A DNA stretch of 64,000 nt from Gemmatimonadetes bacterium T265. GTDB lineage: Bacteria > Gemmatimonadota > Gemmatimonadetes > Gemmatimonadales > Gemmatimonadaceae. The position numbers were made by a program, and so were the translations under genes. The DNA lies in assembly GCA_019973575.1 (NCBI GenBank), contig BPUI01000001.1:1624342-1688341 (forward strand), given 5' to 3'. Positions 926 through 62,663 of this stretch are shown here, in pieces; within the stretch, counting starts at the first letter, position 1; each line of letters begins with the position of its first letter. Below the pieces are notes generated by a model. The model did not search any database. It was not told where the DNA came from and worked only from the letters and a program-made list of their open reading frames with translations.

Positions 926-1729
926 TCAGGGGGCCGCGGTCGCCAGCAACTCCGTCACCAGGTCCTCCGGCGGGTACGCGTCCGCCGTGAAGCGCAGCGC
1001 GAGGTTCGCGTACGCCGCGCCGTCGTACGCGTCGCCCGCCGGGTCGGCCGCGAGCCGCACCCGCACCGCGGGCACGGTCGCGTCCTCGAACGCCCGCTGC
1101 ACCGGGTGGTGCGGGTCGGACGGGTCGAAGGCGAGCGCGAACTGCGCGTCGGCCGGGTCGCGCGCGCGCAGCCGGTCGACGAGCGCGGCGAGCGCCCGCG
1201 GCCCGAACGCGTTGTACGCCTCGTCGTCGTAGTCCGCCGCGCCCTCGAACCGCGTGGCGTGCACGACGACGAGCGGCGACGCGCCCTCGCGGTCCTGTAG
1301 CCAGTTGTCGATGTACCCCGGGGCGAAGGTCTGGACGCGCTCGGGCAACGCGCGGAGCGCGGGCGGGATCCGGCGCGTGTCCTCGAACTCGTCGACCACC
1401 AGCACCTGCTGCGACGCGTCGCGCGCGAGCACGAAGCGGAGCGCGAGCGCGTTGAGCAGCGACGACGCGCGGTCCGCGAGCGCCGGCGGCCGGGCGAGGA
1501 GCAGGTGGCGCGCCGACTCGGTGTGTCCGACCGTCGCGGGCAGTCGCAGCGGCCGTCCCGTGGCGCGCTGTTCGTAGCGAAGCGTCCCGATCCGCAGCGC
1601 CCCCGCCATTTCGGGACGCGCGCCCGCCCCTTCGCCGCGTGCCAGGTCGCCCCACGCCATGAGGGCGAGCGGGCGCCGGCGGACGACCTCGTCGGCCCGC
1701 TGCTGGAACGCGTCGGTGGGGTTGGACAT
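926..1729 (-). CDS. Conserved hypothetical protein
   Basis: A 267-residue soluble protein without signal peptide or membrane segment, starting at an ATG ([16 protein letters not shown]). I do not recognise a family. It has a leucine- and alanine-rich middle (about residues 85-110), then [11 protein letters not shown] and an aspartate-rich C-terminal half ([10 protein letters not shown]). It is convergent with the toxin-like gene, 28 bp away, and divergent from the histidine ammonia-lyase gene, with 152 bp between the two starts. Codon use matches the neighbours, so it is probably native and real. Confidence 0.6.
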
Positions 1730-1881
1730 GCGGGGAAGGCGGGCGTCGCGGGCCGAGCCCTCGCCCGGCGGGCGCAGTCTACCCCGGCCGCGAACGGGCG
1801 GGCAAGCGCGCCGCGGCTATACTCTCCGCCGTCCGGCGGCGCACGATCGGCCGCCGCCGTCCGCGTCTTCCCCGACCCCGC

Positions 1882-3504
1882 GTGCCCGCCCAGCGTTCGG
1901 TAGCTCCCGCCCGGCCCCGCGACCGCCAGTCCGCCGGCGCCGCACCCGTCGTCGTCGGCGAGCCGATCACGCTCGACGACGTCGTGCGCGTCGCGCGCCA
2001 CCGCGCGCCGGTCGCACTCGCCCCCGCGGCGCTCGAGCGCGTGCGCGCGAGCCGGGCGTTCGTCGAGCGGATCGTCGCCGACGGGCGCACGGCGTACGGC
2101 ATCAACACGGGCTTCGGCCGGCTCGCGCACGTGCGCATCGCGGCCGAAGACGTGCGCGCGCTGCAGCGGCACCTCGTCCTCTCGCACGCGGTCGGCGTCG
2201 GCGCGCCGCTGCCGGCCGAAGTCGTGCGCGCGATGCTCCTGCTCCGGGCGCAGAGCCTCGCCGTCGGCCACAGCGGCATCCGCCCCGAGACGCTGCAACT
2301 CCTGCTCGACTGCCTCGACCGCGGCGTGCACCCCGTCGTCCCCGCGCAGGGCTCGGTGGGCGCGAGCGGCGACCTCGCCCCGCTCGCGCACGTCGCGCTC
2401 ACGCTCATCGGCGAGGGCGAGGCGGAGTTGGGCGGCGCGGTGCTCCCCGCGGCCGACGCGCTCGCGCGGGCCGGGCTCGCCCCCGCGGTGCTCGACGCCA
2501 AGGAAGGGCTCGCGCTCATCAACGGCACCCAGGCGATGACCGCGCTCGGCGCCCTCGCCGTCGCCGACGGGCTCGCGCTTGCGACCTGCGCCGACGTGGC
2601 GGGCGCGATGTCGCTCGAGGCGCTCCAGGGCACGCTCGCCGCCTTCGACCCGCGCGTCGCGGAGCTGCGGCCACACCCGGGCGCGGCCGCGGCCGCGGAG
2701 AACGTGCGGCGGCTCGGCGCCGGGAGCGGCATCCACGCCGCGCACGCCGACTGCCCCAAGGTGCAGGACGCCTACAGCCTGCGCTGCATCCCGCAGGTGC
2801 ACGGCGCCACGCGCGACGCGCTCGCCCACGCGGCGGAGGTGTTGGAGCGTGAGGCGAACAGCGTCACCGACAACCCGCTGCTCTTTCCAGATGACCGTGG
2901 GCCGGACGACCGCGGGCCGGACGGCCGCGCGGGCCGCGTGCTGTCGGCCGGCAACTTCCACGGGCAGCCGGTGGCGCTCGCGATGGACTATGCGAAGCTG
3001 GCGGTGGCCGAGCTGGCGAACATCTCCGAGCGGCGGACGGCGCACCTGCTGGACCCCGCGGTGTCGGACGGGCTGCCCGCGTTCCTCACGCCGCGCCAGG
3101 GGCTCAACTCGGGGCTGATGATCGTGCAGTACACGGCCGCGAGCCTCGTGAGCGAGAACAAGGTGCTCGCGCACCCGGCGAGCGCCGACAGCATTCCGAC
3201 GAGCGCCAACCAGGAGGACCACGTCTCGATGGGAACGACGAGCGCGCGGCACGCGCGGCAGGTCGTCGAGCACGCGCAGTGGGTGGTCGCGATCGAGCTG
3301 TTGTGCGCGGCGCAGGCGCTGGAGTTCCGGCGGCCACTGGAGCCGGCGCCCGGGACCGGGGCGGCCTACGAGGCCGTACGCGCCGTCGTGCCGGCGCTCG
3401 ACGGTGACCGCGCGTTGCAGGCGGACCTGCGCGCGGTGTACGCCCTCGTCGCGGACGGCGCGGTGGTTCGCGCAGCGGAGGCAGCAGTCGGCGTGCTGCG
3501 ATGA
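1882..3504 (+). CDS. hutH: Histidine ammonia-lyase
   Basis: A 540-residue cytoplasmic enzyme that removes ammonia from L-histidine to give urocanate. The cofactor-forming triad Ala161-Ser162-Gly163 sits in [14 protein letters not shown] and would cyclise to the MIO group. [10 protein letters not shown] near residue 72 and [10 protein letters not shown] are further family signatures. The GTG start gives an N-terminus about 25 residues longer than usual. Between VTDNPLLFP and [11 protein letters not shown] there is an insertion of about 16 residues (DDRGP twice, then DGRAG) built from a 15-bp tandem repeat at DNA level. No hutU, hutI or hutG lies nearby, so histidine use must rely on genes elsewhere or this is a stand-alone urocanate-forming enzyme. 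A hairpin follows the gene. Confidence 0.93.
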
Positions 3505-3589
3505 CGGCGTGGTGGTGGCTCGTGCACCGCGTGTTCGGGTTGCCGACTGTTGGACCGATCTCTAGCTTGCAGTCCTAGTACGCCGTCCG

Positions 3590-3613
3590 GGGCTCTCGCG
3601 CTCGCGAGAGCCC
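3590..3613 (+). terminator. Terminator-like hairpin after hutH
   Basis: GGGCTCTCGCG and its exact complement CGCGAGAGCCC are separated by two bases, followed directly by TTT and, a few bases later, TTTT. An 11-bp perfect stem followed by a short T-run is the best intrinsic-terminator candidate on this side of the window. It lies 86 bp after the hutH stop. Confidence 0.6.
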
Positions 3614-3683
3614 TTTCGAGTTTTCGGCACCGATAGAACCGAGAGAAAGGCATGGCGCGGGCTCCGCGCCGGAGGCACACGCG

Positions 3684-4157
3684 ATGGACGACGAAGTGGT
3701 AGGCGTGCACGGCGCGACCGCGTCGCGCTGGGAGGACCGTCCCACGGCGCAGCAGCGTACCGGTGTGCAGCACGCGGTCAATGCGCTCCTCGACGCCCTC
3801 GCGCCCGAGCGCCCGCCCGCGCGTGGGGGCGAGACCACGCCCGAGGTGCAGCGCGTGCGCACGCCGCGCGGGTGCATCCTGCAGGGGCCGACGCGCGCCG
3901 TGAGCGTGTCGTGGTTCCCGCCCGGCGCCTCCGACCTCCAGCTCGGCGAGTTGCAGATCGTCACGTGGAGCGGGCGCGTGGCGCGGCCCGGGGCGGCCCG
4001 TGCGCCGGGGGCGGGCGGCGGTGCGGAGACGCTGGCGCAAGAGATCCTCACGCCCGCCCTCGCCGACGGCGGCGCGTGGGAGTGGAAGGCGGCCGACGGC
4101 GCCCGCTACACGCGCGACGCGCTCGCCGCCCGTTGCGAGGCGATGCTCGTCGGCTGA
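3684..4157 (+). CDS. Hypothetical protein
   Basis: A 157-residue protein of unknown function. It begins MDDEVVGVHG and contains a central beta-rich stretch (RAVSVSWFPPGASDLQLGELQIVTWSG) and a C-terminal alpha-rich part. It has no signal peptide or membrane segment. It lies alone between the hutH hairpin and a convergent small basic protein. The ATG at 3684 is the first start after the upstream stop codons and has no strong ribosome binding site. I cannot place it in a family. Confidence 0.6.
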   Translation: MDDEVVGVHGATASRWEDRPTAQQRTGVQHAVNALLDALAPERPPARGGETTPEVQRVRTPRGCILQGPTRAVSVSWFPPGASDLQLGELQIVTWSGRVARPGAARAPGAGGGAETLAQEILTPALADGGAWEWKAADGARYTRDALAARCEAMLVG

Positions 4158-45761: not shown

Positions 45762-45923
45762 TCAGCAGCCGAGGGACGCGGCCGCGCGGCGGCCGAGGTA
45801 GAGGCCGACGCCGGTCCCGACGACGCTGAGGAGGAACGCCGCGAAGATGCCGGCGCCCTCGCCGAGGGCCCAGCCGGCGGAGCTGCCGGCGCACGCGCCG
45901 AGGGTGCCGAAGAGTTTGGTCAT
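45762..45923 (-). CDS. 53-residue glycine-zipper membrane peptide
   Basis: This short frame starts at ATG 45923 and reads MTKLFGTLGACAGSSAGWAL, then GEGAGIFAAFLLSVVGTGVG and LYLGRRAAASLGC to a TGA. It is almost entirely hydrophobic with regular small residues (GxxxG spacing), ending in a basic RR and a final Cys. Small proteins of the form M-x-K-x-F-G-T-x-x-G...G-x-Y-x-G-R-R are widespread and conserved, without known function. It is convergent with tldE and divergent from the RHH/H1-like gene. A real gene is likely because the reading frame matches this family closely. Confidence 0.7.
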   Translation of the reverse strand: MTKLFGTLGACAGSSAGWALGEGAGIFAAFLLSVVGTGVGLYLGRRAAASLGC

Positions 45924-45988: not shown

Positions 45989-46069
45989 CGTTGGGCGGGC
46001 GCCCGGGGGCGCGTTGGGCGGGGCGCGGCCGGCCGTTGGGCGCCCCCGCGTTGGGCGCGGATGTTAGGC
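45989..46069 (+). repeat. Cluster of CGTTGGGC, relatives of the CGTTAGGC motif
   Basis: CGTTGGGC occurs at 45989, 46012, 46034 and 46049 and is followed by TGTTAGGC at 46062. Each differs from the window-wide motif by one base. The cluster lies in the divergent spacer between the 53-residue membrane peptide and the RHH/H1-like gene. Confidence 0.75.
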
Positions 46070-46111
46070 GATGGTTGCGGAATGCGCCCCATCCCCGCAG
46101 TTTCCCCCGCG

Positions 46112-46128
46112 TTAGGAATTTTTCCTAA
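46112..46128 (+). promoter_or_regulatory. Perfect dyad TTAGGAA-TTT-TTCCTAA (operator candidate)
   Basis: Two 7-bp arms are exactly complementary around TTT. The surrounding DNA is the most AT-rich spot between 45 and 48 kb. It lies 41 bp before the ATG of a ribbon-helix-helix protein, the class of regulators that binds short AT-containing dyads, so autoregulation is a natural idea. The left arm with its flank reads CGTTAGGA. Confidence 0.5.
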
Positions 46129-46169
46129 TCGTGTGGTCTAACGTGAACCCCCGCACCCGGGAGCCCGCC

Positions 46170-46562
46170 ATGCCGAGCGCCGACCGCTACTCCAAGTACC
46201 GCGCCGACCAGACCACGGTCTGGATCAGCAAGACCGCCGCCGAGTTCATGGCCCGCGAGCGGGCGGGCGGCGAGGGGACGGCCGCCGTCCTCGACCGGCT
46301 CATCGGGGAGCTGCGCCGGCACCGCCGCGCCAACCCCGCGCTCGCCCCCGAGCCCCGCCCCGCCGCCAAGGGCGCGGCCAAGTCGGCCGGGAAGTCCGCC
46401 GGCAAGACCGCGGCGAAGGGCGCCGGGAAGACGGCCGCCAAGGGCGCCGCGAAGTCGGCGGGCAAGACGGCCGCGAAGGCCGCGGCCAAGGGCGCGAGCA
46501 AGACCGCGGCAAAGGGGGCGGCGAAGGCCGGCGCCAAGCGCGCGGCGAGCCGGTCGGCCTAG
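46170..46562 (+). CDS. RHH-type DNA-binding protein with histone H1-like tail
   Basis: A 130-residue basic protein. ATG 46170 was chosen for the GGGAG in front. Residues 1-52 (TTVWISKTAAEFMARE, then AAVLDRLIGELRRHRR) follow the beta-strand/helix/helix pattern of ribbon-helix-helix (MetJ/Arc-like) DNA-binding proteins. Residues 65-130 are almost only Ala, Lys, Gly, Ser and Thr in a repeating KTAAKGAAKSAGK pattern, as in bacterial histone H1-like tails. A role in chromosome packing with sequence-specific anchoring is likely. It probably binds the dyad in front of its gene. The fold call for the N-terminal part is by pattern. Confidence 0.72.
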   Translation: MPSADRYSKYRADQTTVWISKTAAEFMARERAGGEGTAAVLDRLIGELRRHRRANPALAPEPRPAAKGAAKSAGKSAGKTAAKGAGKTAAKGAAKSAGKTAAKAAAKGASKTAAKGAAKAGAKRAASRSA

Positions 46563-46587: not shown

Positions 46588-47106
46588 GTGACGACCGCGC
46601 CGAGCGGCCCCGGCGCCCCCACGCCCGGCGCCCCCACGCCCGGCGCCATGCCCGGCACCGCCGCGCCCGGCCTCCTGCTCGGGGTCGGGCTCGGTGGGTT
46701 CGTGGACGGCATCCTGATCCACCAGATCCTGCAGTGGCACAACATGCTCTCCGCGCGCGTCCCGCCCGTGACGATGGACGCGATGCGGACGAACATGACC
46801 GCGGACGGCTACTTTCACGCCGCGGTCTGGGCGGCGACGCTCGCCGGGGTGTGGCTGCTCTGGGCGGCGGGGCGCCGCGGCGCCGTGCCCGGCGGCCGCC
46901 GGTTCGCGGGGCAGATGCTCGCCGGGTGGGGGCTGTTCAACCTCGTCGAAGGGGTGATCGACCACCACCTGCTCCAGCTGCACCACGTGGTGGACGTGCC
47001 GGTGCACGTCCCGCTCTACGACTGGCTGTTTCTCGCGGTCGGCGGGGTGGCGTTCCTCGTGATCGGGGCGGGGGTCGCGCGGGCGGCGCGGTACGACGGG
47101 CAGTAG
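46588..47106 (+). CDS. DUF2243 membrane protein
   Basis: A 172-residue membrane protein with a GTG start. After a Pro/Gly repeat (GAPTPGAPTPGA, from a 15-bp tandem repeat) come four helices. The signature DGILIHQILQWHNMLSARVP with its histidines, and DHHLLQLHHVVDVP later, are typical of DUF2243. The many His residues within or near helices suggest metal or haem binding, unproven. It may be co-transcribed with the RHH/H1-like gene (25 bp gap). Confidence 0.88.
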   Translation: MTTAPSGPGAPTPGAPTPGAMPGTAAPGLLLGVGLGGFVDGILIHQILQWHNMLSARVPPVTMDAMRTNMTADGYFHAAVWAATLAGVWLLWAAGRRGAVPGGRRFAGQMLAGWGLFNLVEGVIDHHLLQLHHVVDVPVHVPLYDWLFLAVGGVAFLVIGAGVARAARYDGQ

Positions 47107-61832: not shown

Positions 61833-62663
61833 ATGCGTACCCGTCTCCTCCCGCTGACCGCCCTCCTCGGCTTCGTCGCCGTCCCCGCCTGCGCGCAGCA
61901 GCCCTCCGCGCAACCCGCCGCGCGCCACGAGGACACCGAGGTCTACACCCCCGTCCCCCCCGTCGTCACGCCGGCGGCCGGCGCCGGCCTCACGGGTGCA
62001 CCGCCGAGCGACGCGGTCGTGCTGTTCGACGGGCGCGACCTGTCGCAGTGGGTGACGGTGAGCGACGGCTCGCCCGCGCGCTGGACGGTGGCCGACGGGA
62101 TCGTCACCGTCAACAAGCCGACGGGCAACATCGAGACGAAGCGCCGCTTCACGAACTACCAGCTGCACCTCGAGTGGCGCGTGCCGCCGGACGTGACGGG
62201 GAGCGGCCAGCTGCGCGGCAACAGCGGCGTCTTCCTCGCCTCGACGGGCAAGGGCGACGCGGGCTATGAGCTGCAGATCATGGACTCGTACAACAACCCG
62301 ACGTACGTCAACGGGCAGGCGGGGAGCATCTACAAGCAGTACCCGCCGCTCGCCAACGCGAGCCGCCGGCCGGGCGAGTGGCAGGGCTACGACGTGGTCT
62401 GGACCGCGCCGACGTTCAACGCCGACGGGACGCTCAAGACGCCGGCCTACGTGACGGCGTACCACAACGGCGTGCTCGTGCAGAACCACGCCGAGCTGAA
62501 GGGCCAGACGCTCTACGTCGGCCGCCCCTCGTACACGGCGCACGGGCCCGCGCCCATCAAGCTGCAGGCGCACGGGGACCCGAGCCCGCCGCTCAGCTTC
62601 CGGAACATCTGGGTGCGCGAGCTGCCCGCGGGGCCGCAGGCGCCGGTGCCGCCCGTGCCGTGA
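61833..62663 (+). CDS. DUF1080 (3-keto-disaccharide hydrolase-type) protein, copy 2
   Basis: A 276-residue exported protein. The signal MRTRLLPLTALLGFVAVPAC could be a lipobox (Cys20) or be cleaved after CAQQ. The DUF1080 domain contains AVVLFDGRDLSQWVTVSDGS, TKRRFTNYQLHLEWRVPPDV, GQLRGNSGVFLAS, YELQIMDSYNNPTYVNGQAG and PLSFRNIWVRELP. It differs from copy 1 by longer loops. It was probably the last gene of the plus-strand unit before the IS element inserted between it and the TIM-barrel genes. Confidence 0.93.
   Translation: MRTRLLPLTALLGFVAVPACAQQPSAQPAARHEDTEVYTPVPPVVTPAAGAGLTGAPPSDAVVLFDGRDLSQWVTVSDGSPARWTVADGIVTVNKPTGNIETKRRFTNYQLHLEWRVPPDVTGSGQLRGNSGVFLASTGKGDAGYELQIMDSYNNPTYVNGQAGSIYKQYPPLANASRRPGEWQGYDVVWTAPTFNADGTLKTPAYVTAYHNGVLVQNHAELKGQTLYVGRPSYTAHGPAPIKLQAHGDPSPPLSFRNIWVRELPAGPQAPVPPVP

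Follow-up and report, generated by a model that had tools for sequence, protein, structure and literature searches.

Regulators and chromatin-like proteins of bacteria provide several points of comparison for the locus described here. MetJ, on its met boxes, and CopG are ribbon-helix-helix (RHH) repressors with tandem short operators. HupB/HupS, with an H1-like tail, AlgP and Hc1 all attach a low-complexity lysine/alanine tail, with its lysines at regular intervals, to a folded head that binds DNA. Uptake sequences are short words present in many copies in a genome, and the reader of the DUS is a minor pilin. Uptake sequences show a bias towards one orientation within reading frames (PMC2346458), and a minor pilin has also been proposed as the reader of the USS (PMC12616744). 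On the side of the RHH proteins, members such as pSM19035 ParB/omega use tandem operators made of heptads (PMC9499535).

The window analysed here, a stretch of 64,000 nucleotides, belongs to Gemmatimonadetes bacterium T265, of the family Gemmatimonadaceae. This host genome (G000) has a size of 5.63 Mb, with a G+C content of 74.7% in a 464 kb sample. An initial annotation had singled out a putative RHH domain fused to a histone H1-like tail behind a perfect dyad, and proposed a chromosome-packing protein with a recognition head that could read an octamer scattered over the DNA. The observation turned out to be largely correct, with the fold unconfirmed, and its interpretation is partly supported.

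A basic head and a lysine-rich tail

The gene (P0001) extends from 46170 to 46562 on the forward strand and encodes 130 amino acids. Judging from the sequence, translation almost certainly starts at the ATG at 46170, rather than at the GTG at 46131, since a Shine-Dalgarno-like GGGAG is found at 46159–46163 on the same strand and the homologues in six other genomes all begin with MPS or MPT at the codon of this ATG. Comparison of the head codons of two homologues (G021 and G166) gives seven synonymous and no non-synonymous changes, which reveals purifying selection and argues that the head is a real protein. The gene neighbours are unalike in all three genera where the gene occurs (those of T265 and Gemmatirosa, and the genus labelled g22), so the operon context yields no function. 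The gene lying downstream in T265 (46588–47106) encodes a DUF2243 membrane protein (E 8.5e-45), which was not seen beside the homologues of the other genera.

The tail comprises residues 63–130 (46356–46559, forward strand), with a K-x-x-x repeat and a net charge of about +17. Lysine recurs at every fourth residue, at 67, 71, 75 and onwards to 123, without a miss. This low-complexity, strongly basic, lysine/alanine-rich segment with its regular lysine spacing is indeed histone H1-like, and it is the only such tail among the 403 genes called in the 464 kb around the gene. A scan of the genome contigs matched only lysine/alanine tails of unrelated proteins. Head and tail are both basic, with a pI of about 11. 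The tail is not a constant feature of the protein. The homologue of Gemmatirosa kalamazoonensis (G016; replicon of 1,106,233 bp, identical to NZ_CP007129 with a 100% DNA match) has a degenerate tail with a looser K/G/A/S composition, whereas those of five g22 genomes are only 57–58 residues long and have no tail at all. The pairing of head and tail thus recurs in other genomes in Gemmatirosa, in this looser form, but not in g22.

The head (residues 1–55; 46170–46334, forward strand) contains residues that are invariant across the three genera, and is putatively DNA-binding. It gave no sequence match in Pfam, NCBIfam, PHROG or PDB, and scans of the whole protein against Pfam, NCBIfam, PHROGs and PADLOC revealed no credible family, the matches to the tail in these libraries being low-complexity noise. 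The gene was not among the matches of a PF01402 search of relatives either. The protein is previously unclassified and DNA-binding-like.

The RHH fold suggested for this head could not be confirmed. Two predictions from the lone sequence gave no fold assignment. The AF2 model shows two helices (3–31 and 37–54, pLDDT 78) but no strand, and Foldseek found no solved relative. The missing strand does not refute an RHH fold, because the beta sheet through which RHH proteins dimerise, and which reads the major groove, forms between two molecules and is out of reach for AF2 on a single sequence. When a profile of five distinct heads was aligned by hhalign with 22 RHH_1 proteins from relatives, the segment QTTVWISK fell on the RHH_1 strand with both helices in register, over 42 columns ungapped in the profile. 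This match is weak: its probability is 2%, and as good a score arose in 7 of 200 column shuffles. If the head is of this type, the weak collinear match would place its strand at QTTVWIS and its helices at about 21–33 and 37–54; register and length are also those of CopG. An RHH fold of the head is consequently best described as plausible, though unproven.

The octamer and the distribution of the gene

The octamer CGTTAGGC fills the genome of this soil bacterium, with 2415 copies versus 115 for the reversed word. The window contains 26 copies versus 1.4 expected, and the excess reported at the outset is therefore well founded. In some Gemmatimonadaceae, the density reaches about one octamer per kb. 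Context statistics were obtained with a home-made gene caller on 464 kb of the T265 genome and 400 kb of the Gemmatirosa genome. Sense octamers within genes number 114 and 149, respectively, versus 2.9 and 3.2 under synonymous-codon shuffling. In these same samples, 147 of 201 TTA codons in T265 (73%) and 164 of 175 in Gemmatirosa (94%) lie inside xYG-TTA-GGC, the context of CGTTAGGC and TGTTAGGC; the octamer is strong enough to dictate the position of most TTA codons in some Gemmatimonadaceae. The variant TGTTAGGC is itself enriched about 40-fold in both samples. The flanks of the octamer carry little signal, save a deficit of T directly after the word. Octamers are also found antisense, in intergenic DNA and across gene ends, where the stop codon can be supplied by their TAG or TAA, as in the Gemmatirosa homologue. 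By analogy, the octamer looks like a DNA-level motif comparable to an uptake sequence. Text searches of a collection of papers, on the octamer word and on Gemmatimonadetes uptake sequences, found no account of it.

Two local arrangements may be mentioned here. After the stop codon of the open reading frame at 61833–62663, the segment 62664–62720 holds four graded copies (GCGCCTAACG, GCGCCTAACG, GCGCCTAGCG and GCGCCTGACG), which combine intergenic octamers and decayed ones. In three octamer-poor genomes of another family of the order (G059, G092 and G097), CGTTAGGC occurs in same-strand arrays with a spacing of about 500–700 bp, as expected of integron cassettes.

A profile search with the head in 179 genomes of the family retrieved T265, Gemmatirosa and the five g22 genomes (E 1.5e-30 or lower), noise starting from E = 0.003. 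No further homologue of the head was found in 395 genomes drawn across the phylum, tblastn with the g22 head gave nothing in plasmids or phages, and viral contigs likewise contained no relative. Of these 179 genomes, 26 are octamer-rich, with 223 to 4469 copies of CGTTAGGC each, as opposed to no more than about 70 in any of the remaining 153. The gene is present in 7 of the 26 octamer-rich genomes versus none of the 153 octamer-poor ones, for which a hypergeometric calculation, made by hand and ignoring kinship, gives about 6e-7.

The converse does not hold, since 19 of the 26 octamer-rich genomes are devoid of the gene. Among them are G020, G052, G053, G011, G005, G029 and G033, with a completeness of 97–100%, and the strongly octamer-enriched genera g21, g29 and g35; several of the 19 are 99–100% complete. 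The octamer excess can hence exist without the protein, which cannot be the sole reader of the octamer; the strong form of the initial proposal, which made it the reader, does not survive this finding. A tree of 26 genomes based on rpoB places G021 (of g22) and the pair Gemmatirosa/T265 in separate supported clades. Each gene-bearing clade has an octamer-poor, gene-less close relative (G046 for the former, G015 for the latter), and the octamer-rich state requires at least five changes on this tree. Within g22, G046 has 3 octamers versus about 1600–3750 in G021 and G164–G167, which means that the octamer can be gained or lost inside one genus. Overall, the octamer excess looks older than the tailed protein, or independent of it.

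The region upstream of the gene

Four copies of CGTTGGGC, exact in sequence, lie upstream of the gene in the same orientation (at 45989, 46012, 46034 and 46049; 45989–46056, forward strand), each one mismatch away from CGTTAGGC. They are followed by TGTTAGGC at 46062–46069 (forward strand), the strong variant closest to the gene. Two more one-mismatch variants are CGTTAGGA, starting at 46110, and CGTTAGAC at 46136–46143 on the reverse strand. The canonical CGTTAGGC itself is absent between 45231 and 58060. With CGTTCGGC left out of the one-mismatch variants, the array amounts to 6 sites in 140 bp versus 0.09 expected. It is the densest in 464 kb, where the next-best window has 3. The Gemmatirosa homologue is preceded by three copies of CGTTGGGC at steps of 11 bp, together with CGTAGGGC and TGTTAGGC. 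These 5 sites, versus 0.07 expected, form the densest cluster in 400 kb, with 2 in the next-best window. The corrected Poisson values are about 2e-6 for T265 and 4e-5 for Gemmatirosa.

The spacings differ between the two arrays (23, 22, 15 and 13 bp in T265 versus the 11-bp steps of Gemmatirosa), the spacers cannot be aligned and the flanking genes are unrelated, yet the order is kept, with TGTTAGGC closing the array nearest the gene in both genomes. This combination argues for an array tied to the gene rather than to a segment that both genomes share. Three CGTTGGGC as close as this occur at a single place in the Gemmatirosa genome, upstream of the gene, and at two places in T265, upstream of the gene and inside a coding repeat; in all 179 genomes, CGTTGGGC is found three times over in this way at about a dozen places. 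As a word, CGTTGGGC is only mildly over-represented genome-wide. In three of the five g22 genomes, one CGTTGGGC is found a short way before the gene, which chance could give. What precedes the gene is a set of tandem, short, putatively operator-like sites, a trait that is common, not universal, among RHH proteins.

In both T265 and Gemmatirosa, the array sits between two divergently oriented genes, and could therefore serve the opposite gene or another regulator. On the opposite side in T265, a small open reading frame (45762–45923, reverse strand; 53 residues, MTKLFGTLGACAGSSAGWALGEGAGIFAAFLLSVVGTGVGLYLGRRAAASLGC), glycine-rich and membrane-like, borders the same intergenic region. It is conceivable that another factor recognising octamer-like sites uses the array as its operator, the tailed protein being merely a regulated target, for instance a DNA-protecting or condensing protein produced while the system of that factor is active. 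Some such factor is needed in the octamer-rich genomes without the gene, if any reader exists there, and the array stands between divergent genes in each case. However, the gene opposite is the membrane-like frame in T265 and an AAA ATPase in Gemmatirosa, which leaves the gene of the tailed protein as the sole neighbour common to both arrays, and a mere target need not be absent from octamer-poor genomes, none of which has the gene. This explanation is regarded as rather unlikely.

The perfect dyad TTAGGAA-TTT-TTCCTAA is present exactly as described, at 46112–46128, and its left arm with the preceding CG constitutes the variant CGTTAGGA (46110–46128 for the whole element). No second copy exists in the 5.63 Mb genome within two mismatches. 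Perfect 7-bp dyads with a 3-bp gap are not rare as such: the window has 27 of them, and the 464 kb sample 184. No other such dyad of the window has A+T-rich arms, however; 17-mers as rich in A+T represent 2e-5 of all, which places the dyad among the most A+T-rich spots locally. The dyad is absent upstream of the homologues, which rules it out as a family-wide operator. A terminator is excluded as well, since the dyad precedes the gene and has no T-run behind it, and Rfam gave no match. The dyad probably belongs to a promoter or operator in T265.

Proposed role and comparison with known systems

The gene being confined to octamer-rich genomes, with the densest cluster of near-octamers in the sampled regions upstream of it in two genera, a link between gene and octamer is likely, although the array consists mostly of CGTTGGGC and not of CGTTAGGC. 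The preferred reading, given a probability of about 0.45, is that of an autoregulated small basic DNA-binding protein which recognises octamer-like sites, as an accessory and not as the founding reader. Its head, probably but not certainly an RHH dimer, would recognise sites of the form YGTTRGGC. By binding to the array of variants before its own gene, the protein would repress or tune its own transcription. The lysine/alanine/glycine tail, in the genus of T265 and in Gemmatirosa, would add non-specific affinity for DNA, the ancestral form being likely a bare head of 58 residues as in g22. Should the head also bind the canonical CGTTAGGC, the protein would be titrated, or put to use, by the thousands of copies on the chromosome. 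Its own promoter, made of weaker variants, would then answer only to a free excess. The most far-reaching version would define a new family of histone-tailed, sequence-specific proteins that bind the octamer at thousands of sites and set their own level through weakened promoter copies, a titration feedback between chromosome and gene; it must be considered unlikely.

The initial idea, in which a nucleoid protein reads CGTTAGGC genome-wide with its RHH head and packs the chromosome with its tail, agrees with the basic character of both parts, with the restriction of the gene to octamer-rich genomes and with the octamer-like sites that flank it. It is weakened by the 19 gene-less genomes already mentioned, g21, g29 and g35 included, and by the absence of the tail in g22, which is the genus where octamer density peaks. 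Moreover, the octamer is strictly constrained in sequence within coding regions, which resembles an uptake sequence more than a packing site. A chromosome-packing reader is thus unlikely. A G-quadruplex as a shared element was rejected, since such a pattern overlaps part of the T265 array but is absent in Gemmatirosa. That the cluster is a local repeat expansion or G-rich structural element untied to the octamer, beside an ordinary lineage-specific histone-like protein, would suit the near-perfect 11-bp tandem repeat of Gemmatirosa, the quadruplex pattern of T265 and the small tandem octamer clusters seen elsewhere, as after the stop at 62663, but is improbable given that the T265 copies are not in tandem and have differing spacers, that the whole CGTTGGGC is retained rather than GGG alone, that TGTTAGGC, devoid of GGG, closes both arrays, and that drift is unlikely to have placed an array before this gene in each of two genera, the spacers being unalignable.

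Whatever its exact role, the gene provides a cis-linked lead to the cellular use of the octamer, and its upstream array a small, clonable target for finding an octamer-recognising protein. If the tailed protein were itself the octamer factor, it would be one of few tailed nucleoid proteins to recognise so long a word.

The autoregulated protein preferred here resembles MetJ, CopG and omega in its small size, its basic character and a possible strand-helix-helix register, as well as in the tandem, imperfect sites of 7–8 bp, mostly in the same orientation, before its own gene. It differs from them by the lack of a family match for the tailed protein, by a model without strand and by the C-terminal lysine tail, and R29-E30 occupy in the tailed protein the positions of the hydrophobic core of helix A of RHH proteins. 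With HupB/HupS, AlgP and Hc1, it shares a lysine/alanine tail with regular lysines attached to a head, for which DNA binding is putative here. In contrast to these proteins, the head is not HU, there is no match to Hc1 or HU, and homologues can do without the tail, which is short. As for the octamer, it is comparable to the Neisseria DUS and the Pasteurellaceae USS in its hundreds to thousands of copies, its presence in both orientations, its orientation bias in reading frames and its patchy distribution among relatives. The word itself is different, and the pilin that reads the DUS, or is proposed to read the USS, is quite unlike a tailed cytoplasmic protein. The octamer also contains GTTAGGC, which matches the core box of integron attC sites. 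Unlike attC arrays, however, its sites in octamer-rich genomes are scattered, single and mostly located in coding frames.
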